Below, piece by piece: positions 37,989 through 58,895 of a stretch of 64,000 bases of DNA (within the stretch, counting starts at the first letter, position 1; each line of letters begins with the position of its first letter). The position numbers were made by a program, and so were the translations under genes. Below the pieces are notes generated by a model that saw only the letters and a program-made list of their open reading frames with translations, was not told the origin of the DNA and ran no database searches. The DNA is from Aquilaria yunnanensis (lineage: Eukaryota; Streptophyta; Magnoliopsida; Malvales; Thymelaeaceae). The stretch is taken from assembly GCA_039654915.1 (NCBI GenBank), contig CM077595.1, forward strand, positions 92,793,501 to 92,857,500, in the 5' to 3' direction.

Positions 37989-40315
37989 TGTTGACACCCA
38001 ATTTCGTCCGGGTGTTTTAAAATTTTGAAAAAAATTTTATTAAAAAAAATTAATTTAAAAAAATATATATATTATTATTATTAAAAAAAATTTAATTAGT
38101 TTAAAATATATTTTTGTTTTGTGAAAATTTGATTTAAAATGATATATGTGTGAATATGTGTATGTTTGAAATAAAATAAAATTTCATGAAAAAAATGACA
38201 AAAAATTAAAAGTTTGAGGTAAAAATGACAAAATTGAGAAGTTTCGGAAAAAATTGACAAATTCTAAAAGTTCCAGGAGCATTTGGTAGTTTGTCACATA
38301 AAATTTTGAGCCTGCCGACGTTTTTGGCTCAAATTGACAGAAAACGACAAAATTGTCAAAATCAGAAGCTTCAGGAACTTATCCTGAGTCTGAGAGACGT
38401 AAAGGACTAAAATTGTCATTTTACCAATTTAAGAGATAAGTTTGAAATTTTTTATTAATTTATCCATCAACAGTTCAGCTAAACTTCCTCTATAAATAGC
38501 CCCCCAAATTTTGTGCTGAACACAGAGAAAAATAGAAAGAAAAGCTTAGAGCTCCGTTTTTAAAATAGAAAAAATTACAGCCTTAGTCCCTAGCTCTCCT
38601 TCCTTTCCTCAGAAAATCTCAAAAATTTTCATTTTGACGATTAAGCCATCTTCTTCCCCCCCCCCCGCGCGCCCTCTGTTTCCATTTCTCAGAATTCAGA
38701 ATTTAAAATCAAAGGTACAACTCTCATTTAATCCTTCATCTTTTCAATTTCTTTCACTTTGGTCACTAACTTTGTATTTTATTCTTGCAGAATTAATTAC
38801 TAACCCTTTTAATTTTTACTTGTTTGTTTATTATTTGTTTATTACTAACCCCTTTTTTTTATTGTTGTTATTAACTTACTAACAACTAACTTTTAATACT
38901 ATTATTGTTACTAACCTTTTAATTTTTGCATTATTACTAACTTTTATAATTGTTGTTAACAATTAATTAACTTTTATTATTGTTGTTAATTAATTAATTT
39001 AATTAACTTGGCTAACTTTTTACTGTTGTTAATTAATTAATTTAATTAACTTGGCTAACTTTTTATTATTGTGGTTAATTAATTAATTTAATTAACTTGA
39101 CTAACTTTTTATTATTATTGTTTAACAATTAATTTAATTAACTTTGCTAACATTTATTATTATTTTTAAAGTGGATGGCCAAAAAGCCCCACTTTATTAT
39201 TATTAATTTTTTTTCTTTATATAATTTTTTTATTTAATTCACCTTTACCCTTTACTAATTAATAAATAAATGAAAATTAAAAGAAGATTATTTTGTAATT
39301 AATTATTAAGGCTAATAAAAATTATTTTTAAAAAAGCCAATTATTTTTATTTTTATATACATGTTTTTAATTCTTTAAAGATAACAAAAAGTTAAAATTA
39401 ATTTTAATAGTTATTTTTATCCAGTAAAAATAATAAAAAAATAAAAATAAAACCTGTTTAAAAAAATACATGAAAATTAAGACTTTATATTTTACTGATT
39501 TATTTAAAATATAACTTTTAAATCCACTAAAATAATAAATATTTTTCATTAAACAAGAAAACAAAAAGAAAATTAAAACAAGATAAGAAAAAGATAAGAA
39601 AGATAAGAAAAAGATAATAAAGATAAGAAAGATAAGATAAGATAAGAAAGATAAGAAGGAAAAGAAAGAAAAGAAAGAAAAATATAGAAAATAAAAATTT
39701 TTAGATTATTAATGAATCTAAAAATTCTATAACAAAAAGAATTACGAATTAGTAATTAAACTAATAATTAATTCCATAAAAATAAGAATTAAATAATTAA
39801 CTATAAATTAAATCAACTTACATATCCGGATGATCCGTCAGGATCTGCGGTTTAAAAAAAATATCACCCTTTTAATTAAATAAATTAAATAAAAAAAAAA
39901 GATAAAAATCCATATTTACAATATGGATTAAATTATTTAAAAGTTCACCAAATTCCGTGTCCAAATGACTCGGCAGAGTCCATGGTTCGGAATCAAAAAT
40001 CTTCCGTGTCCAAATGACTTGGCAGAGTCCATGGTTCGGAAGTATAAAATTTCATACAAATTAATTAATTTAAAAATCCACATTTCGACTAATCCAGTTA
40101 AAATTTCTAATTTTGAAAATTAACTGAGAATTATTTAAAAGCAAAGCAAAACAAAATTAAAATCAACTAAGGTGCCAATTTTTGGGCGTTTTAACAAAGT
40201 TGTTTTAACGTAACCGTACTCCCGATCCCCGAACTCTCGCAGACCAATTTTAAGGTGACCAATCGACCTAAGAAAACTGATTGGTGGCGACTCCCGAAAA
40301 CCCGACGTTGCCACA
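37989..40315 (+). repeat. 5' LTR of the Tat/Ogre-type element
   Basis: Starts TGTTGACACCCAATTTCG and ends GTTGCCACA. By eye about ten substitutions and a few homopolymer length changes separate it from 52153-54479. Internal structure: a TATA box (38491), a C-run near 38658, a fourfold TTAATTAATTTAATTAACT repeat (about 38985-39150), an A/G-rich GATAAGAAA array (about 39590-39680) and a twofold ~53-bp repeat with GTCCAAATGACT (39955-40045). Confidence 0.92.
38491..38498 (+). promoter_or_regulatory. LTR TATA box
   Basis: TATAAATA in the context CTTCCTCTATAAATAGCC. Transcription would be expected to start about 30 bp downstream, near 38522, which would define the U3/R boundary. The identical box is present in the 3' LTR at 52658-52665. 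Confidence 0.65.
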
Positions 40316-40318
40316 GCT

Positions 40319-40336
40319 TGGCGACTCCACTGGGGA
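40319..40336 (+). other. Primer-binding site, tRNA-Arg(ACG)
   Basis: TGGCGACTCCACTGGGGA, three bases after the LTR end, is complementary to the 3' end of plant tRNA-Arg(ACG) including its CCA tail. This primer is characteristic of Ogre-type elements rather than the iMet primer of most plant LTR elements. Confidence 0.85.
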
Positions 40337-41428
40337 CTCGATGTTAGTGAGTCGAGCCTAAAGTTGATTTGTTTTAATTTACTTTGCTTATTATGTGGAT
40401 TTTTATATGCTATATTTACTTAGCGAAAACATGCATTATGGATTCACAATATGAAGCTCTATACCCGAGCTTACTTAAATCGAACACGATTCTTTCTAAG
40501 CGGAATTGGTGTTGTTGTCCTTGTGAGGCCATGGTCTCCAAGCCTTCACCGGTTTCAAAGTAGCAAAGTAGTGTATTGCCTTCTGAGACGGTTAGTCTCT
40601 GCATGGGCCCACGAAAAGCTACGACTCGAATTAATCCATTCCTTACATTAACCCTAGAGGGTAAGGAATCGGGCCGTCACTATAATTTAGTGACGGGATT
40701 CGGGAACTATCCCTTGCCTTTTTGATAAGCCACCTTATGCATATAGAACTCCCCACTTAACCATAGAACTAACCATAGTATTCCTCCCATTTACCAACGC
40801 CATAAGCATATCCTTGTTATGCTGTGTTGTTGCTCTACACTTTTATTTTCGTATTTATGGTTTTAACTCATTTTTCCATAATAGTTCATGAGTTGTTAAT
40901 TGCTATTTAAGTTATTAATAAACTTATCTTTCTTTTGTTATACTTCTGTTTTGTGCAAATATTCTTCATGCATCAAAACCACGCATCAAACTATGCTAAC
41001 TTTTTGATCTTTTTAATAACAACTAAAAGTCTTGAAGTTCCATGATATTGGATAAGCAAACTCACTCATTGCATGCATTCCATTACATTAATCACGTGCA
41101 TATAAAGTCTGATAAAAATAATCTCATTGCATGCATTTCATTACATCAATCACACGCATATAAAATCTGATAAAAACATAATCTCATTGCATACATCCAT
41201 TACATTAATCACGTGCATATAAAGTCTGATAAAAACATAATCTTGTTGCATACATCCATTACATCAATCACGTGTATACAAAGTCTGATAAAAACATAAT
41301 CTCATTTTTCCTACATGCATCCATTGCATCAATCATATACACATAGGATCTAATAAAATATACCTTACTTTTAAAAGGATAAAATTGGACCTCGACACCG
41401 ATATTCAATTCGGCTCCAAATAAGATTA
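40337..41428 (+). other. Untranslated leader with ~60-bp tandem repeats
   Basis: The 1.1-kb leader before gag has no convincing ORF. From about 41060 to 41340 there are five imperfect ~60-bp units, each containing a version of GCATATAAAGTCTGATAAAA and a following CATTACATYAATCACGTG. Confidence 0.65.
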
Positions 41429-43627
41429 ATGGCAGAACAAATCGAAGGACGTCTCATAAAGATAGAGTCCAAGATAGAAAGTATGGCCGAACAAATGAGA
41501 CAATTGATCGAGCTAATCAAGGCGAAAGCAATTCAAGAAGCACAAGTTCAGCCACCCATGACAGAAAGAGAAATGGTCACTTTGTTTGTCCAGACATTGA
41601 AGTACCTATATTATGACGAACTCATTGGCAATTCGGCAACTAATTTTTCTAACATTGTCATGTCTGGAGAAAGAATCGAGCATGAGATTAGGACTGGGAA
41701 TATTGCTGAATCCTTTAATAATCCTATAAAAAGAGGAGGACCATCCAGAAGAAAAGATGACGAAGTACAACAAATAGGACGCGGAAGAAGGATTCCCCTC
41801 GTGGATACGGTGGCTATCGGACCTCGCCTATCCTATTTTGCCAATGGGCCCGATAATTACCTTCCAAATAGGCCCAATGATTATCCTCTAAATAGGCCCA
41901 ATGATTATCCTCTGAATAGGCCCAATAATTATCCTCCAAATAGGCCCAATGATTATCCTTCCAATAGGCCCAACAATTATCCTTTTAACAGACCTAATCA
42001 GTCATGGCCACCTGCTCCTACTCCTCCAGTACCTGCACCAAGACCAAGAGAAGTTTTCACACCAATTTCCATGACTTATACTGAGTTATACCCAAAACTC
42101 ATCGAAAGACAATTTATCCGTCCAATTCCTACAAAGCCATTCAAACCCCCATATCCAAGGTGGTATGACCCTAACATTACCTGCCCATATCATGATGGCG
42201 TTCCAGGCCATGGCTTGGAAAACTGCATGGCATTGAAGCGTATAGTTCAACAATTAATCGAGTCAAAGTGGTTGGACTTTTCCGATGAACCAAACGTCAC
42301 TCACAATCCATTGCCGCCTCATCAAGCAAAACCAGTCAATATGATAGAAGAACACCAGCCGATAAAGAAGTCAGTCAACGATATCATAACCCCTCTTAAG
42401 CATGTATATTCATGCCTTCTAAAAGAAGGGGTTATCATTCGGAAGTCTTCTTTTAAACATGAAGAAGTCAAAGATGAGGACTGGTGTGACTTTCATGACA
42501 GTAAAAGTCATTCTATCCAAGAATGCTCAGAATTCCGTGAAAGTCTACAAAGGCTCATGGACTCATCCCAACTCATCATTTCTACGTCGGATAAAGATGA
42601 TGATGTAAATGTGATCACTAAAAAACGGGAAGTCAATGCTACGCCAAAACCACTAGTTATACCAATTTCAAAATCTATTGTCAAGCCTTTAAGAACTCGA
42701 GTCCCGAGGTCATTCCTCTACAAATCAGACAAGGCTGTTCCATGGAGCCATGATTACACTTCCAACATCACATCAACTCCGTTAGAAGTTAGGAGTATGA
42801 CTAGAAGTGGTCCATGTTACTCTCCAGAACAAATGTACAAGCTTCGACAAGATAAGAACGTCACAGACCTAACAAGTGAGCCTCTAGATACAGATACATC
42901 TAAAGAGCAAAAGATGTCTCAAGAGGTGACAGATGAACAAACTACTGAGTTCCTCAAACTCATGAAGCAAAGTGAGTACAGTGCCGTGGAGCAGTTAAAC
43001 CACCTGCCAACAAAGATCTCCATACTTTCACTACTCATAAGCTCTGATGCTCATCGAGAAACCCTCCTCAAAGTCTTGAATAAGGCCTATGTTGAGCCAG
43101 ATATTTCAGTGAATAATTTTGACCACCTCGTCAACAACATCACCGCACAGAATCTCATCACATTCACTGACGATGAGATACCAGCAGAAGGAAGGGGTCA
43201 CTCTAAGGCTCTATATATTTCGGTTAAATACAAAGATCGAACTATGACTAGAGTTATTGTTGATAATGGGTCAGCTCTAAACATAATGCCAATTGAGACC
43301 TTACACAAGTTTGGTATAGACTCATCATACCTCAACTACAGTCATATCACTATTCAAGCATTTGACGGGACGAATAGAAATGTCGTCGGAAAAATAGAGC
43401 TGCCAATAGAGATCGGCCCTTGTGTCTTTCATATCACATTCCAAGTTATGGACATTAATCCTTCTTATACTTGTCTGTTGGGAAGACCATGGATTCATAT
43501 GGCCGGAGCAATTCCCTCCTCATTACACCAAAAAATGAAATTCATTTTTGAAGGAAAGTTAATCACAGTCTTTGCTGAAGAAGGCATTCTGCTATCATCT
43601 ATATCAATAGTAGCAAAGGCCAAGTGA
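41429..43627 (+). CDS. Tat/Ogre-type Gag-protease polyprotein, gag core shortened
   Basis: An uninterrupted 732-residue ORF. Residues 1-40 are a hydrophilic helical N terminus; then MVTLFVQTLKYLYYDELIG and a GERIE motif, the end of a Ty3-type gag core. Most of the core that normally precedes this is absent, so gag has an internal deletion. Residues ~140-189 are a run of eight-residue NRPNDYPL repeats. Two histidine/cysteine motifs typical of Tat/Ogre gag follow: CPYHDGVPGHGLENC (~251-265) and WCDFHDSKSHSIQEC (~352-366). The protease has IVDNGSALNIMP (~610-621; D-N-G instead of D-T/S-G, as commonly seen in this clade) and the C-terminal LLGRPWIHMAGA (~683). The ORF ends right after the protease, with no RT in any frame downstream. 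ATG at 41429 is the first in-frame start after the leader. The intact frame implies recent function or very recent birth. Confidence 0.88.
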   Translation: MAEQIEGRLIKIESKIESMAEQMRQLIELIKAKAIQEAQVQPPMTEREMVTLFVQTLKYLYYDELIGNSATNFSNIVMSGERIEHEIRTGNIAESFNNPIKRGGPSRRKDDEVQQIGRGRRIPLVDTVAIGPRLSYFANGPDNYLPNRPNDYPLNRPNDYPLNRPNNYPPNRPNDYPSNRPNNYPFNRPNQSWPPAPTPPVPAPRPREVFTPISMTYTELYPKLIERQFIRPIPTKPFKPPYPRWYDPNITCPYHDGVPGHGLENCMALKRIVQQLIESKWLDFSDEPNVTHNPLPPHQAKPVNMIEEHQPIKKSVNDIITPLKHVYSCLLKEGVIIRKSSFKHEEVKDEDWCDFHDSKSHSIQECSEFRESLQRLMDSSQLIISTSDKDDDVNVITKKREVNATPKPLVIPISKSIVKPLRTRVPRSFLYKSDKAVPWSHDYTSNITSTPLEVRSMTRSGPCYSPEQMYKLRQDKNVTDLTSEPLDTDTSKEQKMSQEVTDEQTTEFLKLMKQSEYSAVEQLNHLPTKISILSLLISSDAHRETLLKVLNKAYVEPDISVNNFDHLVNNITAQNLITFTDDEIPAEGRGHSKALYISVKYKDRTMTRVIVDNGSALNIMPIETLHKFGIDSSYLNYSHITIQAFDGTNRNVVGKIELPIEIGPCVFHITFQVMDINPSYTCLLGRPWIHMAGAIPSSLHQKMKFIFEGKLITVFAEEGILLSSISIVAKAK

Positions 43628-45600
43628 CCTTCTCTTCCAAGTTGGTGTGACCCAAATCCCAAATGTAACTGAAAAGTCTGTGGTGCTGAAACTCAAGGTC
43701 CAACAGTTGGTCGAGTCTAAGTTGCTAGGCCATGATGTGATTGATAATTGAAAGTGAAGATTTTGAGCTGGAATTACATTGATTTTGGAAGGGCTCCAAG
43801 TCAGATCTGACCTAACAGTCCGCATACATTTTCGAATGACAGGGAATCCTTTGAATAAACTTGTATATTTGAAAGCTTGCAAAAGTAATCTAATAGTAAA
43901 AATCTCCTAGATTTAGTCCAGAATCTAGGGTGTAGTCTTTGTTAGATGGACACCTGGTATTCTTTCTGGTACAACAAAAAGATGTAATGCGTGCATTCTA
44001 CTACTTTCCATTTTTACACTTTTTGCCATTATACTATCTATTATTGCCATCACACTTTACTTTTTGACAACTGGTAATTTTTTTTGTTCTCTAACAAAAA
44101 GATGTTACGTGTACATTATACCACTTTTTAATTCCATTATTACATCTACATATTGTACCAATTTTTACCAAAAATTCAATTATTACACCTACACATTCTA
44201 TCACTTCTTACCAAAAATTCTGTTTTTACATCCATCTCTCACTCCTTTCCATTATACTATCCATTATTGCTATCATACTTTGCTTTCTAAATGATACTAC
44301 TCGTGGGTGAAAATAAAAAGTTAAGGAAAATTTGATAGTAATGATCTTGAAAGTGCTGCCAAATCTAGTAAGAAGGATTTCATATGTTGCACCTCAACCC
44401 TCAAAAAGAATTCACAGTGGTTATCAACATCCTTGCAAGGAGTCCGGGATTAACTTCCAAAGAAGTTAGCTCTCATATTAAATGACTTCAGTGGCCTCCC
44501 AATTCTCACAAATGCTCAATACAAAAAAAAATTCTCAGTTTTCCACAACACAAATTCCAACAAAGGAAAGAAGTTCCTCCCTTCCATCAAAAGCCATTAA
44601 AGAGAAAATCCAAATAAGAAAAAAAATCCAAAAAAAAAAAAAGAGACTGAGAAGCAAATAAAGCCACTTAAGTCATCTCACTTCAAGAAGGCTATGATCT
44701 CGGTTCTCCATAACACAAACTCCAAAAAAAAAAAAGGGAAAAAGTTCATCCCTTCCATCAAAAAGCCAACAAGGGAAAATTCAAAACCAAAAAAAGAGAG
44801 ACTGAGAGCAAACACAAGCAAGTAAGGCCACTTGAATCATCTCATTTCAAGAAGGCTATGATCTCGGTTCTCTGTAACAAAAACTCCGAAAAGGAAAAAG
44901 TTCATCCCTTCCACCAAAAAGCCAACAAGGGAAAATTCAAAACCAAAAAGAACTGAGAACAAGCACGAGCAAGCAAGGCCACTTGAGTCATCTCACTTCA
45001 AGAGAGTTATCAAGTATGTTATCACCATAGCTCACACAAAAAAACAAAAAAATAAAAAAAAAAAAAGAGGAAAAAGGGCTCAAACTAGAAAAAAAAAAAA
45101 GAAAGAAAAAAAGTGAGCTATGGATTCTAGACTGAAAACCTGCAAAGGCGGTTTAGAACACAAAAGCAACTTTCAAGCCAAGCATACATAAAGACCACGA
45201 TAGTTGGGGGGCAACAGATGAGGTTTAACTTTCTGGAAAGAGTGGCAAGTTTGAGGTCATCACTATTGAGTTTTTCATCATAATCAAATTTGCTCACGAG
45301 TAGTATTAAAAGACCCTTCTTTCAAACCACTTAAACTTAACTTTCCTCAGACTTATCATCCTCATTCAGCTAAAAGACTATCATTGTGAAACTTGTTTCT
45401 ACCTTATTTAATACTGCTCATGAGTAGTATTAAAAGACCATTCTTTCACACCACTTAAACTTAACTTTACTCAGACCTAATATTTACCTCTTCATATTAT
45501 TCTCATTCAGCTAAAAGACTGCCACAAAAAAAAAAAACATTCAAACTTAACTTTCCTCACACCTAACATTTTTCCTCTCGATATCATCCTCATTCAGTTA
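43628..45600 (+). other. Non-coding spacer with tandem repeats (pol position)
   Basis: This is where RT/RNase H/integrase would be expected, and none is recognisable. From 44535 to about 45005 there are three ~165-bp units with AAAGTTCATCCCTTCCA, GAGACTGAGAGCAA and CACTTGAGTCATCTCA(C/T)TTCAAGAAGG. At 45205-45218 a PPT-like TTGGGGGGCAACAG occurs. From about 45300 to 45600 a further ~120-bp repeat recurs (GAGTAGTATTAAAAGACC and CATTCAGCTAAAAGACT, 2-3 copies). Confidence 0.6.
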
Positions 45601-45613
45601 AAAGGCTATTATT

Positions 45614-45805
45614 GTGAATCATGTTCCTACCTTATTGCCTTGCACAGTTTATGTCTTCGAGTTGGAAAGGGAAGAATGGCAGGATATTTTAATTAAAAAC
45701 AAAGACCGTAAATTACTTTGTCAAGCTTTGCAAATTGATGAAAATTTTTCTTTAAGGCCAAACCATTATTCATTAATGTATGTAGACTTAAAAGTAAGGA
45801 GATAG
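45614..45805 (+). other. Unrecognised short ORF in the cargo spacer
   Basis: A 63-codon frame with balanced amino-acid composition (contains LEREEWQDILIKNKDRKLL and NHYSLMYVDLKVR), unlike the AT-driven frames around it. It is not similar to anything I can name. It may be the stump of a further cargo gene: translation of the next ~200 bp in nearby frames also looks protein-like but with stops. Confidence 0.3.
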
Positions 45806-46499
45806 CTTGAGTCTTTCTTTAATAAGATGTGGTTCTTGTAAGAGAAATTTACGATCAAGTGCCATCACAAAGGTCTAGAAATCCTCAACCTTCTGTTAAA
45901 TCAAAGGCGAGATGATATCTCTTTCCACATAAACACCATAATCAAGGGGGCAAAGTAGTCTCTACTAAGCGCAAGAAAAGTACTGCCAAGAAAGAAGCTC
46001 AATAGACAAGGGGGCAAGTCTTATGGATCAGAACCTGAGTCTAAGGAAGAGCAATCATTCGGACTGTAACATGGGGGTAAACAAGTGTCGGCATGGCCAC
46101 AAGAAAATGGGCAAAGCAGACATTGAAAGTAAAGCCTTTGATGGTATCAAATCCATGACAAAGGATGAGTATTCGAAAGAGATATAAATTATGAGGTGGG
46201 CCAACCTTAAAGAAACTGAGGCCAAAATTCAAAGAACAAGTCAAAGAAAGAGGATTTTGAAAAGAGTTGGGCTTTTGAGGCAGTGAACAAAAGCTGGAAA
46301 GCATAAAGAGATTCAATGATAGTCCAAGAAGGCAATCATAAAGAAGATCCAGTAAAGCAAAGACATGAAGAACTAGATTCACCAAAAATAAAAAATAAAT
46401 AAAAATAAAAAAATAAAAAAAAAAAGAACCATCAATTACACATGCTTTGCATTCATGCATTTCACATCATGCATGCATGATTTTTACACGATAGGAATC

Positions 46500-47040
46500 A
46501 AATGGGAAACACATCCACCGCACCGTTACAGCAGTATAAGCTGAGATCTCAATAATATCAGCTCTTACCAATCTATCACTGGATACACGGCTAATATGCG
46601 GGACCAACCCGCATCAGGAATTCAAGGATAAGGTAGACAATATGTCAAAAGCCTGGCAATCGATTCAATAATTGAGACTACACCTGGAAGGACAGGATTG
46701 ACGTCAGCTAGTAGTATCCAAGATAAGAGATAGCTATAGCCAAGGATAAGGCAGATATCAAAAAAAATATAAATTAGACAATATTGTCAAAAGCCTGGCA
46801 ATTGATTCAATAATCGAGGCTACACCTGGTAGGACAGGATTGATGCCAGCTTAGCAGCATCCAAGATAAGAGATAGCTGTGGTTAAAGATAAGGCAGACA
46901 TCAAGAAATATTGTCGTTGAAACTTTGTCAAAAGCGGACAAAAGATTCAATAATCAAGGACTGGATCAATGTCATGCCTGACAAGATATCAAAGATAAGA
47001 AATATCTATGATACCAAAATAAAGTAGGATCCACTTTTCC
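46500..47040 (+). repeat. ~130-bp tandem repeats upstream of the cargo array
   Basis: Three imperfect units between about 46640 and 47010, each with GTCAAAAGCCTGGCAAT, GGACAGGATTGA(C/T)G(T/C)CAGC and ATCCAAGATAAGAGATAGCT. Non-coding. They may represent upstream promoter DNA of cargo copy 1 or slippage-generated filler. Confidence 0.6.
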
Positions 47041-47145
47041 GGTTAAATGGCGGATACGGTACTCCGTGACTCTCAAGTCGGTTCTCTCAGTTGCCCATAA
47101 TAACTGATTCTTTCCTCTCTTCTGTCTTTTACTTCCCTCTAGAAA

Positions 47146-47695
47146 ATGGATCCTACTCTTTCTGTCTTACGAAAATATTTTCCTTCTCTCCCAATGAACA
47201 TTCTCAAAAAGATCTACCAAGTTCGCTGTGAACGATTAAGAGATTCTGATGCACAAAGGAATCTCTGAAGATGTGCGGTGGTTAATCGAAGCCAAGGTTC
47301 GTCTGGCAGGTGAAATCCCAGAGGCATTTGTGTCTCACATGCCTGGTATAGGCAAAAGCTCTTATGCCAAAAAGCGAAGAGCGAAAAGGTTACAAGTCTG
47401 CCATAAATGTGGACGGTGGACTTGTAATACTAAATGTCGTTCTTTAGGGATGATCTCTGATAATCGAGAAGATAAAATACGATTCATTAAGAATGGCCTG
47501 AGTAAGGACTCGTTGGATGATATCCAATTGACTCTTGAGACGCGTTCTTGTGGATCCGTGCAACGTGAACTTCTTGGTTTATGGAGCATTTTTCATGAAG
47601 AACGAAACCGTTACAGTCTCGGGAATCTGACTGTAAATGACCCTGTTTGCCAGCTTGTAAGAAAACTGGATGGGAAGCAAATCCTCGACTCATAG
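47146..47695 (+). pseudogene. Viral NABP-like cargo gene, copy 1 (frameshifted)
   Basis: Homologous over its length to the intact copies at 47984 and 48749. It opens at ATG 47146 in the same context and ends with the same QLVRKLD tail. Relative to those copies it has one extra base near 47244-47248, so the frame from 47146 runs into TGA at 47266-47268, while the remaining ~148 codons are open from an internal ATG at 47249. Zinc-type cysteines VCHKCGRWTCNTKC and the basic YAKKRRAKRL stretch are kept in the downstream frame. Either a recent pseudogene or an N-terminally shortened product. Its 5' leader (about 47050-47145) resembles the copy 2 leader, but no TATA box was seen upstream. Confidence 0.75.
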
Positions 47696-47856
47696 AAGGC
47701 GTTAATGCCGTTACTAGATGTAAAGCCAGTGGAAGATGTGAGTCACAGTCACAATTACTGTACATACAGTTTGTTATATTTGGAAAAGTTTTCATTTTCT
47801 TTTGACAGATGTACAGGCTCCCCTAAGTGTAATTGACACGTTATCCCCTTTCATCA

Positions 47857-47864
47857 CTATAAAT
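47857..47864 (+). promoter_or_regulatory. Internal TATA box before NABP-like copy 2
   Basis: CTATAAAT in TTTCATCACTATAAATGC, 120 bp upstream of the ATG at 47984. The same block precedes copy 3 and, slightly altered, the LOG-like gene. Confidence 0.55.
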
Positions 47865-47983
47865 GCGTGTTCTTCCTTCTGATTAAGCAGCGGATAAGAT
47901 ACCCCGTGACTTCTAAAGTCGGTTATTCCAGTCTCCTACAATAACTGATTCATTCCCTCTCCTCTCAAATTCTTCTCTAATCA

Positions 47984-48532
47984 ATGGATTCTACTTTTTC
48001 TGCACTGCGAAAATACTTTCCTTCCCTTCCAATAAAAGTCCTTAAAAAGATCTACCTTGCTAGATGTGAAAGAATCAGAGTTTTTACACGCAAAGGCATT
48101 TCCGATAATGTGCAGTGGATAATTGAAGCTAAGGTCCGTCTGGCGGGTGAAGTTCCAGATGCATTTATGCCCCGCATGCCCGGTTTAGGTAAAAGCCGTT
48201 ATGCCAAAAGGCGAAGAGCAAAGAGACTAGGCGTGTGTTATAAATGTGGGCGATGGAATTGTAATACTAAATGTCGCTCTTTAGGATACATCTCCACAAA
48301 TCGTGAAGATAAAAGAAAATTCATTAAGAATGGCCTGCGTAAGGAATCTCTGAAAGATATCCGAGAGACTCTTGAAACGCATTCTTGTGGAAAAGTGCAA
48401 GGTCAAATTGTCAAATTGTGGAGGACTTACCATAAAGATCGAGACCGTTACAGTCTTGGGAATGTGACTGTAAACGACCCTGTCTGCCAGCTTGTAAGAA
48501 AACTGGATAGGAAGCAAGTCCTCGACTCATAG
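47984..48532 (+). CDS. Viral NABP-like (cysteine-rich nucleic-acid-binding) protein, copy 2
   Basis: An intact 182-residue ORF with no introns. What is visible: an N-terminal helix-prone segment LRKYFPSLPIKVLKKIY (8-24), a second conserved block IIEAKVRLAGEVP (46-58), a basic patch GKSRYAKRRRAKRLG (69-83) and directly after it a putative zinc finger CX2CX4CX3C (C85, C88, C93, C97), then a FIKNGL motif. The basic patch followed at once by a cysteine finger and an 'F-I-x-x-G' block is the layout of the cysteine-rich nucleic-acid-binding proteins of carlaviruses and relatives (Viral_NABP / Carla_C4 families), small proteins with nucleic-acid-binding, nuclear and, in some genera, silencing-suppressor roles. 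The C-terminal ~70 residues extend beyond the usual viral length. Family assignment is by motif, function is inferred. About 70% identical, gap-free, to copy 3. Confidence 0.75.
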   Translation: MDSTFSALRKYFPSLPIKVLKKIYLARCERIRVFTRKGISDNVQWIIEAKVRLAGEVPDAFMPRMPGLGKSRYAKRRRAKRLGVCYKCGRWNCNTKCRSLGYISTNREDKRKFIKNGLRKESLKDIRETLETHSCGKVQGQIVKLWRTYHKDRDRYSLGNVTVNDPVCQLVRKLDRKQVLDS

Positions 48533-48681
48533 AAGGCCTTGAAGCCATTACTAGATATAAATCAGTGGAAGATGAGAGCCACAGTCATGATTGCTGTACA
48601 TATAAGCTGTCATTTGTCTTTTCTTTTGACAATAATGTACTTGCTTCTGTAAGTGTAATTAACGCATTATCCCTTTCATCA

Positions 48682-48689
48682 CTATAAAT
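48682..48689 (+). promoter_or_regulatory. Internal TATA box before NABP-like copy 3
   Basis: CTATAAAT in TTTCATCACTATAAATATG, 60 bp upstream of the ATG at 48749. The shorter distance reflects loss of part of the leader found in copy 2. Confidence 0.55.
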
Positions 48690-48748
48690 ATGTGTTAGTT
48701 ATTTTCGTTTCCTACAATCACTAATTTCTTTCTTTGCCTCCTTCATCA

Positions 48749-49297
48749 ATGGAGTCTTCTCTTTCCGCCCTACGAAAGTATTTTCCTTCCTTCCCAATAA
48801 ATGTTCTTAAAAAGATTTATCAAGCTAGATGTGAACGATTCAGAGTATTTATGCACAAAGGCATTCCTGATAATGTGCGGTGGCTAATTGAAGCTAAGGT
48901 TCGTTCAGCTGGTGAAGTTCCCGAAGCGTTCTTTCCCCGTATGCCCGGCTTTGGTAAAAGCCCTTATGCCAAAAAAAGAAGAGCAAAGAGGCTAGGTGTT
49001 TGTCATAATTGTGGATGGTGGATTTGCGGCAATAAATGTCGTGCTCCAGGAGTGATCACCAGAAATCGTAATGATAGAATAAGATTCATTAAGAATGGCT
49101 TGCGTAAGGAATCTCTAGAAGATATTCGAGAGGTTCTTGAAGCGCATTCTTGCGGAATAGTGCAATTTGAGGTTGTTGGATTATGGATAATTTTCCAAAA
49201 AGAACGAGATCGTTACAGTCTTGGGAATCTGACCCTAAATGACCCTGTTTGCCAGTTTGTGAGAAAGCTAGATGAGATGCAAATCACCGATTCATAG
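48749..49297 (+). CDS. Viral NABP-like (cysteine-rich nucleic-acid-binding) protein, copy 3
   Basis: Intact, 182 residues, the same length as copy 2 with no gaps; I count 53 differences, so about 71% identity. ATG 48749 is chosen because it aligns with the copy 2 start; the frame is open a few codons further upstream without an ATG. All four finger cysteines are kept (VCHNCGWWICGNKC), as are the basic YAKKRRAKRLG patch and FIKNGL. Substitutions cluster between the second and fourth cysteines and in the region after the finger, so the copies may have different binding preferences. Keeping frame, length and cysteines at this divergence points to past selection on the encoded proteins. Same caveat as copy 2 on family and function. 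Confidence 0.75.
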   Translation: MESSLSALRKYFPSFPINVLKKIYQARCERFRVFMHKGIPDNVRWLIEAKVRSAGEVPEAFFPRMPGFGKSPYAKKRRAKRLGVCHNCGWWICGNKCRAPGVITRNRNDRIRFIKNGLRKESLEDIREVLEAHSCGIVQFEVVGLWIIFQKERDRYSLGNLTLNDPVCQFVRKLDEMQITDS

Positions 49298-49329
49298 AAA
49301 GCATTGAAGCCATTACTGGACGCAAAGCC

Positions 49330-49735
49330 AGTGGAAGACGAGGATCAAAGTCACGATTACTGTACGTACTAGCTGTCGCTTTTGAAATTTTCCTCCCCTT
49401 TCAGCAATAATGTATCCACTCCTGACATGAGCCATAGTCACGATTACTGTACGTGTTAGCTGTCGCTTTTGAAATTTTCCTCCCCTTTGGCAATAATGTA
49501 CCCACTCCTGACACGGACTACTGTATATAGCTGCCACTTTTGAAATTTTCCTTCTCTTCCAACAATCACGTACCTACTCCTGACGTAAGCTACAGTAGTG
49601 ACTACTGTACATGCTAGCAGCTATTTTGAAAATTTTCCTCCTCTTTTAACGATAGTGTACCCATACCTGACCAGAGTCATACTCGTGACTACTGTGTATA
49701 GCTGGCAATAATGTATCCACTCTTGAAAATAAAAT
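49330..49735 (+). repeat. ~75-90-bp direct repeats upstream of the LOG-like gene
   Basis: About five imperfect units, each with versions of AGTCACGATTACTGTACGT, TTTTGAAATTTTCCTC and AATAATGTAYCCACTCCTGAC. Related single units follow copy 1 (near 47740) and copy 2 (near 48575), so the unit is part of the cargo cassette's promoter side and has been multiplied here. One unit contains TGACGTAAG (49581-49589), an as-1/bZIP-type core. Could act as an enhancer array; that is inference. Confidence 0.6.
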
Positions 49736-49756
49736 TATTGCCTTATCTCTTCATCT

Positions 49757-49764
49757 CTATAAAT
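49757..49764 (+). promoter_or_regulatory. Internal TATA box before the LOG-like gene
   Basis: CTATAAAT in CTTCATCTCTATAAATATATCC, 34 bp upstream of the ATG at 49798. Such close spacing would leave almost no 5' UTR unless the start is further downstream. Confidence 0.55.
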
Positions 49765-49797
49765 ATATCCTCTTTTCTCACAAGGATAAGGATAGGA

Positions 49798-50427
49798 ATG
49801 GAGAAAACCCCAACTCGTAAATCCCGAAGTATTTGTGTATTTTCTGGGGCTTTTCCTGGAAAAGATGAAGAGTATTTAAAGGCAGCCAACCATTTGGGTA
49901 GAGTATTAGCTGAGCGAAAAATACATTTAGTTTATGGAGGAGGTAGTGTCGGATTAATGGGAGGTGTAGCATCAGCAGCATCTTTAGGAGGAAGTCAAGT
50001 TTTGGGCATCATCCCTGGACCTTTGAAATTTGTTTCTGGGGGCACGATTGGAGAAGAATTAGTGGTTAAAAATTTGCAAGAGCGTGTGCTACAAATGCTT
50101 TTAAATGCTGATGCTTTCATCGCTCTACCCGGCGGTTTTGGCACATTGGGAGAAGTCTTTCAAATTGCTTCCATGGCCCAACTTAATTTGCATAAGAAAC
50201 CTATTGGGCTTTTGAATGTTAACAATTTCTTTACAGGTCTGATAGCTTTTATGGATTATGCTATGCAGAAGAATTTCATATCAAGAGTGGCACGGTGAAT
50301 CATAATATCCGCAACAACTGCTGAAGAATTGCTAGATAAAATACAAGCTTTTGTTCCTGAACCAGATCCAGCAATGATTCAGATAGACTGGACACGACAG
50401 TCTTTCCCGACCAGTTCACTCCCATAA
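49798..50427 (+). pseudogene. LOG-like cytokinin riboside 5'-monophosphate phosphoribohydrolase, with in-frame TGA
   Basis: LONELY GUY enzymes release active cytokinin bases from riboside monophosphates in the cytosol. The ORF begins MEKTPTRKSRSICVFSGAFPG, has the nucleotide-binding YGGGSVGLMG (46-55) and the family signature PGGFGTLGE (111-119), then LNLHKKPIGLLNV, and after the TGA ends with AEELLDKIQAFVPEP, all in register with a typical ~210-residue plant LOG. A TGA at 50296-50298 (codon 167) splits it; the same frame then runs to TAA 50425-50427. The segment before the signature reads NLQERV, keeping an arginine but not the histidine and lysine usual there, so activity is uncertain. There are no introns, whereas plant LOG genes have several, so it was probably captured from mRNA. 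ATG 49798 is preferred over the in-frame ATG at 49711 because that would lie upstream of the TATA box. Confidence 0.85.
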
Positions 50428-50975
50428 TGGTCCTCTACTCACCCTGTTGAAGTATTGTGGAAGAAAGAAGCGATCTGATCCGTTTTTCTTGTCCTTTAGT
50501 TTTATTATCAGCATTTTCTTTCGCGTTTCAGTTTTTCTTTTCAGGGAATTTCTTTTTATAAGATAGTTTCGTCCATGCTGATATTAAAACCATGCGACAA
50601 TGCCTTTAGGTTGGAATGGTTGAGTAAAGAGTAATTTTTATTACTCTTGAGACGCATCCTATTAGATCTACTAGGCATAACATTTTGGGGTAGTTAAGCT
50701 TTAACCTTATTCGGATGACATATCTCACAAGGGAATCTATATTTACTGAAGAAAATATTAGATGAACCTTGAATATTGATTCCAAACATCCACTCCATTT
50801 ACATAATTTGTCAGTGTTATTGTCATCATCAAGATTCACTCGTTTTATCGAAGCCTAATTCTTTGCGCTCGCCAATTATGAAAATTCACACTTTCGAAGA
50901 AAATTATTCCAATTTCAATTGCTTTTATATAAATTTCGCTCGAGGTCCTAAGGAAAGCTCCTTAGCCTCAAAATC
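50428..50975 (+). other. 3' flank of the LOG-like gene
   Basis: T-rich, 3'-UTR-like DNA; no recognisable coding. Short frames on both strands have no motif. Confidence 0.4.
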
Positions 50976-51890
50976 AATTTTCATCATCGGGGTTTTAAGG
51001 ATGGAACCTTTGCCTCGAAAACAATCAATTTTCATCAATTCAGGGTTTTAAGGATGGAACCTTTGCCTCGAAAACAATCAATTTTCATCATCGGGGTTTT
51101 AAGGATGGAACCTTTGCCTCGAAAATAATCAATTTTCATCATCAAGGTTTTAAGGATGGAACCTTTGCCTCGAAAACAATCAATCAATTCGAGGCTTTAA
51201 GGATGGAACCTTTACCTCGACATCAATCAATCAATTCGAGGTTTTAAGGATGGAACCTTTGCCTCGACATCAATCAATCAATCCGGGGTTTTAAGGATGG
51301 AACCTTTGCCTCGAGATCAATCAATCAATCCGAGGTTTTAAGGATAGAACCTTTGCCTCGAGATCAATCAATCAATCCGGGGTTTTAAGGATGGAACCTT
51401 TGCCTCGAGATCAATTATCAATCCGAGGTTTTAAGGATGGAACCTTTGCCTCGACATCAATCAATCAATTCGAGGTTTTAAGGATGGAACCTTTGCCTCG
51501 AGATCAATCAATCAATCCGAGGTTTTAAGGATAGAACCTTTGCCTCGAGATCAATCAATCAATCCGGGGTTTTAAGGATGGAACCTTTGCCTCGAGATCA
51601 ATCAATCAATTCGAGGTTTTAAGGATAGAACCTTTGCCTCGAGATCAATCAATCAATCCGGGGTTTTAAGGATGGAACCTTTGCCTCGAGATCAATTATC
51701 AATCCGAGGTTTTAAGGATGGAACCTTTGCCTCGACATCAATCAATCAATTCGAGGTTTTAAGGATGGAACCTTTGCCTCGACATCAATCAATCAATCCG
51801 GGGTTTTAAGGATGGAACCTTTGCCTCGAGATCAATCAATCAATCCGAGGTTTTAAGGATGGAACCTTTGCCTCGAAAACAAATAATCAA
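50976..51890 (+). repeat. ~47-bp tandem array, about 19 units
   Basis: Unit core GGTTTTAAGGATGGAACC followed by TTTGCCTCGA and a variable CAATCAATC spacer. I count 19 occurrences of CCTTTGCCTCGA or close variants from 51006 to 51864, spaced about 46-53 bp. The first four units have a longer TTTTCATCATC spacer. A block of units (about 51210-51440) seems duplicated as a whole downstream, so expansion was partly by multi-unit duplication. Tandem arrays between pol and the 3' LTR are typical of Ogre-type elements. Confidence 0.9.
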
Positions 51891-52045
51891 TCAATCAGTC
51901 CATCTTACAACGATAGGAGCTTTCCCATCGTTAGAGGTTCTAAGGACCTTTCCTTAACCTCAAACAAATAATCAATCAATCAGTCCATCTTACAACAATA
52001 GGAGCTTTCCTATCGTTAGAGGTTTTAAGGACCTTTCCTTAAACC
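51885..52045 (+). repeat. Two ~78-bp direct repeats
   Basis: Two units with AATCAATCAATCAGTCCATC, TTACAACRATAGGAGCTTTC and TAAGGACCTTTCCTTAA, directly following the 47-bp array and sharing its AATCAATC spacer, so probably a diverged higher-order form. Confidence 0.75.
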
Positions 52046-52139
52046 TTACTGTTTGGGCGGCGAGAACATTCTCAATGCCTACCTAAGCCGGACGAAATTT
52101 GGTAACGACTTTGCATACATCATGTCCCATGAAGCATGC

Positions 52140-52152
52140 AAAGGGGGGCAGC
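52140..52152 (+). other. Polypurine tract
   Basis: AAAGGGGGGCAGC directly precedes the 3' LTR; the priming site for plus-strand synthesis. Confidence 0.8.
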
Positions 52153-54479
52153 TGTTGACACCCAATTTCGTCCGGGTGTTTTAAAATTTTGAAAAAAATT
52201 TTATTAAAAAAAATTAATTTAAAAAAAAATATATATTACTATTATTATTAAAAAAAATTTAATTAGTTTAAAATATATTTTTGTTTTGTGAAAATTTGAT
52301 TTAAAATGATATATGTGTGAATATGTGTATGTTTGAAATAAAATAAAATTTCATGAAAAAAATGACAAAAAATTAAAAGTTTGAGGTAAAAATGACAAAA
52401 TTGAAAAGTTTCGGAAAAAATTGACAAATTCTAAAAGTTCCAGGAGCATTTGGTAGTTTGTCACATAAAATTTTGAGCCTGCCGACGTTTTTGGCTCAAA
52501 TTGACAGAAAACGACAAAATTGTCAAAATCAGAAGCTTCAGGAACTTATCCTGAGGCTGAGAGACGTAAAGGACTAAAATTGTCATTTTACCAATTTAAG
52601 AGATAAGTTTGAAATTTTTTATTAATTTATCCATCAACAGTTCAGCTAAACTTCCTCTATAAATAGCCACCCAAATTTTGTGCTGAACACAGAGAAAAAT
52701 AGAAAGAAAAGCTTAGAGCTCCGTTTTTAAAATAGAAAAAATTACAGCCTTAGTCCCTAGCTCTCCTTCCTTTCCTCAGAAAATCTCAAAACTTTTCATT
52801 TTGACGATTAAGCCATCTTCTTCCCCCCCCCGCGCGCCCTCTGTTTCCATTTCTCAGAATTCAGAATTTAAAATCAAAGGTACAACTCTCATTTAATCCT
52901 TCATCTTTTCAATTTCTTTCACTTTGGTCACTAACTTTGTATTTTATTCTTGCAGAATTAATTACTAACCCTTTTAATTTTTACTTGTTTGTTTATTATT
53001 TGTTTATTACTAACCCCTTTTTTTTATTGTTGTTATTAACTTACTAACAACTAACTTTTAATACTATTATTGTTACTAACCTTTTAATTTTTGCATTATT
53101 ACTAACTTTTATAATTGTTGTTAACAATTAATTAACTTTTATTATTGTTGTTAATTAATTAATTTAATTAACTTGGCTAACTTTTTACTGTTGTTAATTA
53201 ATTAATTTAATTAACTTGGCTAACTTTTTATTATTGTGGTTAATTAATTAATTTAATTAACTTGACTAACTTTTTATTATTGTTGTTTAACAATTAATTT
53301 AATTAACTTTGCTAACATTTATTATTATTTTTAAAGTGGATGGCCAAAAAGCCCCACTTTATTATTATTAATTTTTTTTCTTTATATAATTTTTTTATTT
53401 AATTCACCTTTACCCTTTACTAATTAATAAATAAATGAAAATTAAAAGAAGATTATTTTATAATTAATTATTAAGGCTAATAAAAATTATTTTTAAAAAA
53501 GCCAATTATTTTTATTTTTATATACATGTTTTTAATTCTTTAAAGATAACAAAAAGTTAAAATTAATTTTAATAGTTATTTTTATCCAGTAAAAATAATA
53601 AAAAAATAAAAATAAAACCTGTTTAAAAAAATACATGAAAATTAAGACTTTATATTTTACTGATTTATTTAAAATATAACTTTTAAATCCACTAAAATAA
53701 TAAATATTTTTCATTAAACAAGAAAACAAAAAGAAAATTAAAACAAGATAAGAAAAAGATAAGAAAGATAAGAAAAAGATAATAAAGATAAGAAAGATAA
53801 GATAAGATAAGAAAGATAAGAAGGAAAAGAAAGAAAAGAAAGAAAAATATAGAAAATAAAAATTTTTAGATTATTAATGAATCTAAAAATTCTATAACAA
53901 AAAGAATTACGAATTAGTAATTAAACTAATAATTAATTCCATAAAAATAAGAATTAAATAATTAACTATAAATTAAATCAACTTACATATCCGGATGATC
54001 CGTCAGGATCTGCGGTTTAAAAAAAATATCACCCTTTTAATTAAATAAATTAAATAAAAAAAAAGATAAAAATCCATATTTACAATATGGATTAAATTAT
54101 TTAAAAGTTCACCAAATTCCGTGTCCAAATGACTCGGCAGAGTCCATGGTTCGGAATCAAAAATCTTCCGTGTCCAAATGACTCGGCAGAGTCCATGGTT
54201 CGGAAGTATAAAATTTCATACAAATTAATTAATTTAAAAATCCACATTTCGACTAATCCAGTTAAAATTTCTAATTTTGAAAATTAACTGAGAATTATTT
54301 AAAAACAAAGCAAAACAAAATTAAAATCAACTAAGGTGCCAATTTTTGGGCGTTTTAACAAAGTTGTTTTAACGTAACCGTACTCCCGATCCCCGAACTC
54401 TCGCAGACCAATTTTAAGGTGACCAATCGACCTAAGAAAACTGATTGGTGGCGACTCCCGAAAACCCGACGTTGCCACA
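52153..54479 (+). repeat. 3' LTR of the Tat/Ogre-type element
   Basis: 2327 bp, the same length as the 5' LTR and almost identical, with a TATA box at 52658-52665. It carries the same internal arrays. The host sequence resumes with GCTCC at 54480. Confidence 0.92.
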
Positions 54480-54564
54480 GCTCCAGAAATTCATCTGATG
54501 TGCAGGGGCGGAGCTAGGAAATTTGATCATTAGGGGCAAACTATAGTTCATAATATAGATCAGT

Positions 54565-57803: not shown

Positions 57804-58895
57804 CAGGGTATTAAATACTATTACCGTTACATATACCACATCCTAAATTTTTAAGGTATACCGCATGGTATATTGATTTACATACCATTACTGTTTTAGC
57901 AAAAAAATAAATGTTAGAATATTATTTTAAGATGACATATATTCAATAAATTTTTTTACACATTTTATATGTTTTCTAATTTTTCTCATCACAATTTTTA
58001 AAATATAAATAAAATATATATGATAAAAGATATTTTTCTAATACAAAAGCATAAAAAAATATTATATATATAGAGAAAAATAAATAATACTAAAAAAGAA
58101 ACCAATTTATTATATAAGAGAAAATAAATAATACTTTAATAATAAAAATATATTTTTCAATACTACATTGAGGGCCAATTCATTTGAGCTAAAGTCAACT
58201 AACTTTTTTTAACTTTTACATCTTTTTTACATGAAACCAATTTTATTTGAAAGCCAATGTTATGTAAATATAATAATCAATTTGAAAGTAAATTTTTATG
58301 ATGTTGTTAAATTTTTATAAATTTTTCTTTTTTAAGGCTTGAAACTAGAAAAATTTATAAAAATTTAGTAAGATTATAAAAATTGTATTTTCAATTGATT
58401 ATTGTAACTACATAATATTGGCTTTTAATTAATATTAGTTTCAAGTAAAAAAGATATCAAAATAAAAATAAGTCATTTTATAGTTAATTGACTAAAGTTA
58501 AAACGAATTGGGTGTGAGTTCCTAGGTGTCTCAAAGTAACTATTAAATTTTTATATTAACTAAGAAAAGTAACCAAAAGAATAAAAGTAAATATTTATTT
58601 TATGGTATGTGTATTAATTATATTTTAATATTTTATATATTTATGACATTTTTATGTAAAATGGGAAAAAAAATCTCACACACATCTACAAAAAATAAAA
58701 TATTGCAATATGTACATCGCGGTATTTGCAGTATACAGTAGTTTTCAGACAAAAGGTATACAAAAAATGAGCAGTACGCGAATCACTGTATATTGTGTGA
58801 TAAAATAACAAAATATAAAAATATTTATATCACGTATAGATTACCCACAGTAAGCATTATAACTGCGTTATACCGCGGTATCTAATAACTCCATA
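57804..58895 (+). mobile_element. hAT-like MITE with nested foldback element
   Basis: 1092 bp flanked by a perfect 8-bp duplication GATGATTG (57796-57803 and 58896-58903), the size typical of hAT. The left end is CAGGGTATTAAATAC and the right end, reverse complemented, TATGGAGTTATTAGATAC, so the terminal repeats are imperfect. Many GTATAC/CGGTAT motifs occur near both ends. A second copy in opposite orientation lies at 10209-10957. No transposase. Confidence 0.7.
58172..58513. mobile_element. Foldback MITE nested in the hAT-like MITE
   Basis: Two arms of about 165 bp are near-complete reverse complements: GCCAATTCATTTGAGCTAAAG at the left against ACCCAATTCGTTTTAACTTTAG from the right. The same family recurs at 59822-60092. 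It is absent from the related MITE at 10209, so it inserted into this copy. Confidence 0.65.

Follow-up and report, generated by a model that had tools for sequence, protein, structure and literature searches.

Why does a young retrotransposon of Aquilaria yunnanensis carry genes of non-retrotransposon type in the position expected for pol, and do these genes belong to the element? The window (the whole 64,000-nucleotide stretch of DNA that was analysed) contains a real, young LTR retrotransposon insertion, the features of which are collected in Table 1. Its two LTRs, of 2327 bp each, differed by 9 substitutions at 2324 aligned sites and by three gap events (K2P 0.0039). Paired LTRs, a primer-binding site (PBS) and a polypurine tract (PPT) were accompanied by a flanking duplication of 4 bp, or of 5 bp with one mismatch, together identifying an LTR retrotransposon. 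The near-identical LTRs, primer site and PPT described in an earlier note were all borne out. The PBS is presumably of the tRNA-Arg type. Within the window, the internal order is protease, NABP, LOG, tandem array and PPT.

Table 1. Features of the element and its immediate flanks, in window coordinates.
Feature	Position	Strand	Remarks
Putative target-site duplication	37984..37988 (left); 54480-54484 (right)	.	ACTCC (left), GCTCC (right); 4/5 bases match
5' LTR	37989..40315	+	Begins TGTTGACACC, ends GTTGCCACA; 99.6% identity to 3' LTR
PBS-like TGGCGACTCCACTGGGGAC	40319..40337	+	Immediately inside 5' LTR
Gag-protease frame, open	41429..43627	+	Retrotrans_gag core absent, protease part kept
Stretch in expected pol position	43628..47145	+	Low-complexity and tandem repeats; pol domains not found in 31 of 44 listed frames
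NABP copy 1	47146..47695	+	Viral_NABP/Carla_C4-like; 148-aa open remainder 47249-47695
TATAAA, cassette before NABP copy 2	47858..47863	+	
NABP copy 2	47984..48532	+	182 aa, open
TATAAA, cassette before NABP copy 3	48683..48688	+	
NABP copy 3	48749..49297	+	182 aa, open
Repeated block separating NABP copy 3 from LOG	49370..49720	+	Imperfect repeats resembling part of NABP 3' flank
TATAAA, cassette before LOG	49758..49763	+	Resembles cassettes of NABP copies 2 and 3
LOG-type cytokinin riboside monophosphate phosphoribohydrolase gene	49798..50298	+	Intronless, premature stop
47-bp tandem array, 18.9 copies	50991..51892	+	Upstream of PPT
PPT AAAGGGGGG	52140..52148	+	Immediately ahead of 3' LTR
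3' LTR	52153..54479	+	Basis: alignment to 5' LTR

The gag-protease is a single uninterrupted frame of 732 aa. Its protease part matched Asp_protease_2 (E 2.5e-4, slightly below the curated cut-off), but the Pfam scan of this frame gave no match to Retrotrans_gag (PF03732). Alignment with the gag relatives P0232 and P0233, in which Retrotrans_gag is present, showed the core to be missing from the window frame. The gag-protease is open as previously described, with its protease part kept but a gag that has lost its core. The gag homologue search returned eight relatives, the nearest in Vicia villosa (34%); none of the eight was linked to NABP or LOG, and the gag alignment found no match in viral_contigs. 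We take the Vicia villosa relatives to be members of the Tat lineage. The element has long LTRs, a tandem array before the 3' LTR and gag relatives at 34%, and it is best read as a non-autonomous, putatively Ogre/Tat-like member of Ty3/gypsy, its probable lineage being that of the nearest gag relatives.

Between the protease and the cargo, 44 stop-to-stop frames of at least 40 aa were listed, of which 31 were scanned (23/23 on the plus strand and 8/21 on the minus strand). No reverse transcriptase, RNase H or integrase was found in these 31 frames, which gave chance-level unrelated matches only. To that extent the earlier account was right to see here a Tat/Ogre-like element that lacks pol and has an organised cargo. 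A minus-strand ORF at 46041-46460 was considered as a gene and rejected, as it matched no family. TR-GAG elements retain a gag domain and lack pol. The window element resembles them, and other non-autonomous LTR elements, in combining LTRs, PBS and PPT with a gag frame but no recognised pol. It nevertheless falls outside the TR-GAG class: pol was not found, but neither was a Retrotrans_gag match, and it has four non-retroelement genes in addition.

The cargo comprises four sense-strand genes of non-retrotransposon type. This part of the earlier account was correct, but the genes are of two kinds, three tandem NABP paralogues and one LOG, and two are broken. NABP copy 1 is frameshifted, its ATG at 47146 being out of frame with the rest of the gene, and LOG has a premature stop, whereas the reading frames of NABP copies 2 and 3 are uninterrupted. 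The suggestion that each gene has its own promoter held in part: TATA cassettes, recognised by sequence alone, precede copies 2 and 3 and LOG, but none precedes copy 1. When the LOG cassette was compared with those of copies 2 and 3, 0 of 500 shuffles reached the score for either copy.

All three NABP copies scored above the curated Pfam cut-offs for both Viral_NABP and Carla_C4. The matches to these viral families are modest (22-29 bits) and cover mainly the basic/zinc-finger part. In an alignment of 78 members, 74 matched each of the two families at E <= 0.01; one cysteine was invariant and three more were conserved at >=90%. The carlavirus CRPs (PVM CRP and CVB p12) share both Pfam families with the window NABP, which differs in its length of 182 aa, in the conserved stretches flanking the virus-shared part on both sides, and in being chromosomal and within a retrotransposon. 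Scanning viral_contigs with NABP copy 2 and with the NABP alignment retrieved no viral protein, and a PDB sequence search with NABP gave no match. The predicted NABP structure was too weak to build on (pLDDT 55.4 with 19 sequences and 62.8 with 78).

The window copies of NABP show an excess of synonymous change. Over 438 shared bases, the three pairs gave NG86 dN/dS values of 0.36, 0.21 and 0.37, with dS of 0.47-0.90. Because this dS compares with an LTR divergence of 0.0039, the triplication is much older than the insertion. At least 111 NABP homologues were found, the 15 organism-named ones coming from Xanthoceras, Acer, Citrus, Rhamnella, Parasponia and Orobanche, and NABP clusters held up to 109 member sequences. 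A tree was built from 29 of the 111 listed proteins and the three window copies. Copy 1 was identical to P0001 at 142/148 positions and copy 3 to P0002 at 161/182. Copy 2 had no clear partner; P0046 was identical to it at 99/126 positions and to copy 3 at 96/126.

The window LOG scored above the cut-off for Lysine_decarbox (92.9 bits) and contains PGGxGTxxE, which we take to be the LOG phosphoribohydrolase motif. It stops at 50298 after 166 aa and is not full-length. Among the best 120 of 3123 relatives passing E 1e-30, 86 have 215-217 aa, 109 carry PGGxGTxxE, and P0112 reached 92% to the window LOG. LxLxL formed the exact C-terminal end in 84 of the 96 homologues of at least 205 aa among these 120, the 24 shorter rows being excluded from the count. 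In 86 unselected rows, leucine occupied positions -7, -5, -3 and -1 in 80, 85, 83 and 84 cases, respectively. EAR-motif proteins carry an LxLxL that binds TOPLESS; the EAR-like tail of the LOG relatives, a candidate motif of this kind, has been lost from the truncated window LOG. In a tree that combined the window LOG with 27 of the 120 listed proteins, two fused pieces and four PDB sequences, the relatives from rosids and asterids formed one clade, separate from two Arabidopsis LOGs (97/98).

Organism-named homologues of both NABP and LOG occur in rosids and asterids alike. Moreover, NABP is joined to LOG within a single gene model in P0082 (Rhamnella) and P0104 (Citrus), although Pfam placed NABP under the cut-off in P0104 and did not list it in P0082. 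The Citrus model keeps the sequence directly after the NABP stop, with a best score of 88 (copy 1) against <=32 in 200 shuffles. A conserved stop read-through was rejected as the explanation, since copy 2 shifts frame in this block, which was left as a conserved 3' flank. In addition, three contigs of 2.4-8.7 kb were common to the NABP and LOG lists on size and source, a number reached in 0 of 5000 jittered controls. This test, from which 15 NABP and 48 LOG organism-named rows were excluded, gave eight coincidences, four of them impossible by size or source. A 1386-bp contig pair that fits by length was rejected as linkage; it is probably chance, because the NABP and LOG trees disagree.

The possibility that the cargo is confined to the present copy, which would speak against the earlier interpretation, was weakened by the close relatives of copies 1 and 3 and of LOG. 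As judged from these homologues, the cargo did not arise as an accident of a single copy, since flowering plants that are only distantly related have relatives of both genes, sometimes side by side. The cargo was seen linked to gag-protease and LTRs in the window only; LOG relatives in other plants may be element-borne. The NABP-LOG block could instead be neutral baggage, captured from a neighbouring element or a host locus and of no benefit to the element. Two broken genes out of four fit such a history, and retrotransposons are known to transduce gene sequences in one or few copies (available text of PMC7264820, which also describes many captured genes in sorghum as still functional). The low dN/dS among the tandem NABP copies, the cysteine conservation, the conserved leucines of the LOG tail, and the NABP-LOG gene models in both Citrus and Rhamnella argue against neutral baggage, which we consider unlikely.

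The same purifying-type dN/dS would suit domesticated plant genes that benefit the host and merely lie within retrotransposon-rich DNA, and some LOG relatives are annotated as ordinary genes, for example LOGL10 in Populus. The window genes are nevertheless enclosed by a 99.6% LTR pair with a flanking duplication, and the multi-copy pattern (Reevesia pubescens contributes 34 of the best 120 of 3123 LOG rows, on many different chromosomes, besides the large NABP clusters) speaks against host benefit, which we consider very improbable. Also very improbable, in our judgement, is a nested or chimeric locus, in which an ordinary gag-containing element received the cargo by a separate insertion or through a join made in assembly. 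The DNA that separates protease from cargo is indeed rich in repeats and gave no recognisable coding signal, and NABP is joined to other retroelement-like pieces in P0063 (Rhamnella) and P0091 (Orobanche). However, no second pair of repeats of >=100 nt bounds the cargo, since repeats of that length were confined to internal arrays, NABP copies and the LTRs themselves, and the order from protease to PPT fits an internal region.

The earlier note had the cargo replacing pol. No pol domain was found in the 31 frames scanned, but deletion of pol from an element already carrying the cargo as extra ORFs is likelier than replacement. Counted toward deletion was the Rhamnella gene model P0063, in which NABP follows an upstream piece that we take to be an integrase C-terminus, although Pfam lists no integrase there. 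Also counted was a published result from Citrus (PMC9289625, in the text available), where the consensuses that yielded a LOG-type (YgdH) domain had been assembled around reverse transcriptase.

With moderate confidence, we regard the element as a recent, helper-dependent, pol-deleted insertion of Tat/Ogre type carrying an old NABP-LOG module, the role of which is probably counter-silencing and hormone manipulation, as the gene sequences suggest. Its ancestor would have been an element with the accessory module, from which pol and the gag core were then lost. The module would have comprised a nucleic-acid-binding protein of the type found in carlaviruses and their kin, triplicated here, with a captured intronless LOG gene behind it; we infer that NABP passed from virus to element. 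An intact relative, the candidate helper, would package, copy and integrate the element in trans. If the lesions predate insertion, NABP copy 1 and LOG are dispensable in cis for this step, because they are broken. Transcription could start from the LTR or from the putative TATA cassettes.

The available texts on the viral relatives describe the PVM CRP as a silencing suppressor (PMC10219291) and CVB p12 as a transcriptional activator as well (PMC7588395) that causes hyperplasia (PMC12172455). By analogy, the plant NABP may weaken silencing by small RNAs and perhaps also alter transcription programmes. LOG, for its part, would supply more active cytokinin locally, and the EAR-like tail of intact LOG family members may engage TOPLESS-type co-repressors. 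Dividing cells would thereby be favoured, and element copies would reach the next generation.

The earlier note took an Ogre/Tat-type element with an organised multi-gene cargo to be undescribed, which is partly wrong. A LOG-type (YgdH) domain has been published in Gypsy elements of Citrus and Populus (Steinbauerova 2011, as cited in PMC9289625, Alvarado-Marchena 2022), but neither a virus-type NABP in plant retrotransposons nor its pairing with LOG was found in literature searches. Like the window element, the YgdH elements have a LOG-type gene within a plant Ty3/gypsy element; their consensuses are built around a reverse transcriptase, of which none was found here, and their description in the available text of PMC9289625 mentions no NABP, pairing or C-terminal tail. 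The same text describes Phalaenopsis AlkB Gypsy elements, with a captured m6A demethylase that, according to its authors' proposal, works against the control of transposon RNA by the host. These are large Ogre relatives in Tat with a tRNA-Arg PBS, as the window element may also be, but they have pol and one captured gene and are given for Phalaenopsis only, whereas the window element has two gene types with rosid and asterid relatives. Accessory ORFs in a long Tat internal region are shared with Grande, Retand and Ogre (PMC7264820, PMC6317226 and PMC11963269, as available), where gene23 of Grande has its own promoter. There, no clear relatives exist for the antisense ORFs, and those in sense orientation are termed env-like, in contrast to the sense genes of the window element, the relatives of which are recognisably of virus type and host type. 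According to the available part of PMC9289625, known conserved domains are mostly lacking from the extra ORFs found in plant Ty3/gypsy elements. Both accessory genes here have relatives with testable activities, namely silencing suppression and transcriptional activation (viral relatives) and cytokinin activation (LOG).

More tentatively, the pair may be a lineage-spanning module of at least rosids and asterids, made of a flexivirus-derived NABP and a single captured host LOG with an acquired basic patch and EAR tail, carried by more than one Ty3/gypsy lineage with shared TATA cassettes. Its carrier would act selfishly, disarming small-RNA defence and biasing cells to proliferation. NABP would then stem from a flexivirus-like RNA virus gene for a silencing suppressor and transcription activator, and the basic patch of LOG would be of nuclear type. 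The flanks of P0063 and P0091 are presumably Athila-like. If this holds, retrotransposons recruited a counter-defence protein from an RNA virus together with a hormone enzyme from the host, and both were retained in rosids and asterids. Acute transforming retroviruses combine a captured growth-promoting gene, loss of pol and dependence on a helper. The window element shares this pattern, its helper dependence being predicted, and the module might be the plant counterpart of such oncogene-carrying viruses, by analogy only, in the form of a plant Ty3/gypsy element. Some plant genes annotated as 'LOGL10' or 'Viral nucleic acid binding' may be transposon genes.

The LTRs of the element are nearly identical: 9 substitutions and three gap events separate them over 2324 aligned sites (K2P 0.0039). 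Under the two rates applied, this divergence gives an insertion age of about 0.15–0.28 million years. A PBS-like sequence lies directly 3′ of the 5′ LTR, AAAGGGGGG is found immediately 5′ of the 3′ LTR, and the flanks ACTCC and GCTCC represent a duplication of 4 bp, or of 5 bp with one mismatch. The near-identical LTRs and boundary signals claimed in the earlier note were thus confirmed. A tandem array of a 47-bp unit (18.9 copies) is located a short way upstream of AAAGGGGGG and the 3′ LTR.

Coordinates of features in the element and elsewhere in the window
Feature	Position	Detail
Complete LTR element	37989-54479	two 2327-bp LTRs
Gag-protease open frame	41429-43627	732 aa
NABP copy 1 upstream stretch homologous to copy 2	47036-47146	
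Block 3′ of the NABP stop codons	47693-47780, 48530-48610, 49295-49380	~80 bp, one per copy
LOG gene	49798-50298	
AT-rich array	2988-4720	
Degraded LINE-like pieces	11470-11934, 27518-29212	
MITE-like inverted repeat	58197-58478	

The protease in the gag-protease frame was matched by Asp_protease_2 with E = 2.5e-4, slightly under the curated cut-off. Eight relatives were listed, including proteins of Vicia villosa and Mucuna pruriens, and identity to one of them, P0232, was 34%. Pfam detected Retrotrans_gag in the relatives P0232 and P0233 and did not find it in the window protein, from which the gag core is also absent in the alignment with relatives. The window gag is therefore a deletion derivative; the frame is open, as had been claimed, but its gag core is gone. 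Scanning of 23/23 plus-strand and 8/21 minus-strand stop-to-stop frames of at least 40 aa between the protease and the cargo detected no reverse transcriptase, RNase H or integrase, in agreement with the earlier reading. As both pol and the gag core are missing, the element would depend on a helper for mobility.

Four non-retrotransposon protein genes are indeed present, although three of them are tandem copies of one gene, resembling the carlavirus nucleic-acid-binding protein (NABP), and the fourth is a LOG gene of the cytokinin riboside monophosphate phosphoribohydrolase type. The NABP genes are spaced 837 and 765 bp apart, and all three exceed the curated cut-offs for Viral_NABP (PF05515) and Carla_C4 (PF01623), with 22–29 bits. 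Copies 2 and 3 each have an open 182-aa frame; the start of copy 1 is in a different frame from the remainder. Over 438 shared bases, NG86 gave dN/dS values of 0.36 (copies 1 and 2), 0.21 (1 and 3) and 0.37 (2 and 3); the YN00 ratios were about 0.40, 0.15 and 0.30, respectively. NG86 dS among the copies was 0.47–0.90. Synonymous divergence is more than 100 times the LTR divergence, and the triplication is therefore far older than the present insertion. Close relatives were found for copy 1 (P0001, 142/148 identical) and copy 3 (P0002, 161/182). A further protein, P0046, matched copy 2 at 99/126 and copy 3 at 96/126 positions, and was not tied to copy 2 in the NABP tree.

Each cargo gene had been proposed to carry its own promoter. 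Cassettes containing TATAAA were found upstream of NABP copies 2 and 3 and LOG, and the LOG cassette is similar to both NABP cassettes (0/500 shuffles reached the score in each case). The region upstream of copy 1 matched that of copy 2 better than shuffles did (74 vs 30), and showed no excess over shuffles (27) against copy 3 (20) or LOG (22). The homology with copy 2 begins about 107–110 bp before the ATG, just 3′ of the copy 2 TATA box, so that copy 1 is without the cassette. The proposal thus holds, at the sequence level, for the other three genes. The block following the NABP stop codons is conserved among the three copies and readable in gene-model tails of two other plants, Citrus (P0104) and Orobanche (P0100). 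Copy 1 gave the highest score with each of them, 88 for Citrus and 99 for Orobanche (shuffle maxima 32 and 38); copy 3 also scored above shuffles, and copy 2 clearly so in one comparison only. Candidate roles of this block are a terminator, a promoter or a lost coding extension.

The LOG protein gave a Lysine_decarbox match of 92.9 bits, and its closest solved structure is Arabidopsis At2g37210. Ordinary plant LOG genes typically contain introns; the window LOG is uninterrupted. It stops at 166 aa, whereas 86 of the 120 listed relatives have 215–217 aa and P0112, 92% identical, is without the early stop. Among the 96 listed homologues of at least 205 aa, LxLxL lies inside the final 12 residues in 85 and forms the exact C-terminal end, preceded by a K-rich patch, in 84, counts that are not independent because the proteins are related to each other. 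With shuffled tails the count averaged 10.4 of 96 and never exceeded 21, and such a tail occurs in 1 of 111 NABP proteins. In all 86 rows of 215–217 aa, selected without use of the motif, leucine occupies positions −7, −5, −3 and −1 in 80, 85, 83 and 84 rows, respectively, and the intervening positions −6, −4 and −2 are variable. Another relative, P0164, ends in DLNLTP. Both patterns, LxLxL and DLNxxP, are forms of the EAR motif, which recruits TOPLESS, and the tails of the relatives are accordingly EAR-like. The window LOG is without the LxLxL tail. The tail counts cover relatives of the window LOG, and the two Arabidopsis LOGs available for contrast are represented by aligned parts ending short of the C-terminus.

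Of 161 candidates, 111 were listed as NABP homologues. The 15 named ones come from Xanthoceras, Acer and Citrus (Sapindales), Rhamnella and Parasponia (Rosales) and Orobanche (Lamiales); individual NABP clusters comprised 47 and 109 sequences. In the viral sequence collection, no NABP homologue was detected by either of two scans. In the NABP tree, the Orobanche proteins and P0079 form a well-supported group (100/100), the two Rhamnella proteins pair (100/98), and the Sapindales proteins and P0051 are weakly joined (80/84). Among the best 120 of 3123 LOG matches passing E 1e-30, 34 rows are from many chromosomes of Reevesia pubescens, and other sources include Paulownia, Populus, Parasponia, Diplodiscus and Orobanche. 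This multi-copy pattern suggests that the relatives may be carried in LTR elements. In the LOG tree, the sampled relatives and the window protein form one group (97/98) apart from Xanthoceras P0113 and two Arabidopsis LOGs. Close relatives include Populus genes annotated LOGL10 (P0155, P0200 and P0206), the first and last of which group with the window LOG; all three may be transposon genes.

Single gene models in Rhamnella (P0082) and Citrus (P0104) contain an NABP part followed by a LOG part. Pfam detects the LOG part in both; its NABP match is under the cut-off in P0104 and unlisted for P0082. The relationship is drawn there from direct matches to the window NABP, at 52% identity each, and from a precomputed PF01623 label. 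These two LOG pieces sit on long branches in the LOG tree. Same-sized contigs were also sought between the NABP (96 contigs) and LOG (72) lists. Eight lengths coincided, and size and source fit in four (8723, 4511, 2425 and 1386 bp); at least three such coincidences at ≥2 kb occurred in 0/5000 controls. The 1386-bp pair was rejected as linkage because the NABP and LOG trees disagree. Gene models P0063 (Rhamnella) and P0091 (Orobanche) fuse NABP to stretches that we take to resemble an Athila-type integrase C-terminus and protease; Pfam found no retroelement domain in either. These models may represent this cargo within a different lineage of Ty3/gypsy elements.

The cargo had been called undescribed. 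For the LOG-type domain this does not hold: PMC9289625, citing Steinbauerova 2011, places YgdH in consensus sequences of Gypsy elements from two Citrus species and, once a filter is lifted, from Populus trichocarpa, a domain these elements have in common with the window element. The prominent extra-ORF domains according to PMC6317226 are plant mobile domain, Transposase_28 and Athila ORF-1, and the portions available of PMC11963269 and PMC7264820 do not mention NABP or LOG. Searches of open-licence literature by title, abstract start and term counts found, among the papers listed (30 of 11,695 matches in one search), no report of NABP or carlavirus-type genes in retrotransposons. The combination of NABP and LOG is surprising and directly testable, with part already in print; its function we infer. 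Carlavirus cysteine-rich proteins suppress silencing, as shown for PVM (PMC10219291). By analogy, an NABP-type protein could shield element RNA, and the predicted role of LOG as a cytokinin-activating enzyme could be to favor dividing cells.

Elsewhere in the window, the degraded LINE-like pieces matched zf-RVT and RVT_3, as well as RVT_1 at a score under the cut-off. The AT-rich array has 22-bp units nested within ~165–190-bp repeats, and the MITE-like inverted repeat has 137-nt arms, 80% complementary, separated by an 8-nt gap.
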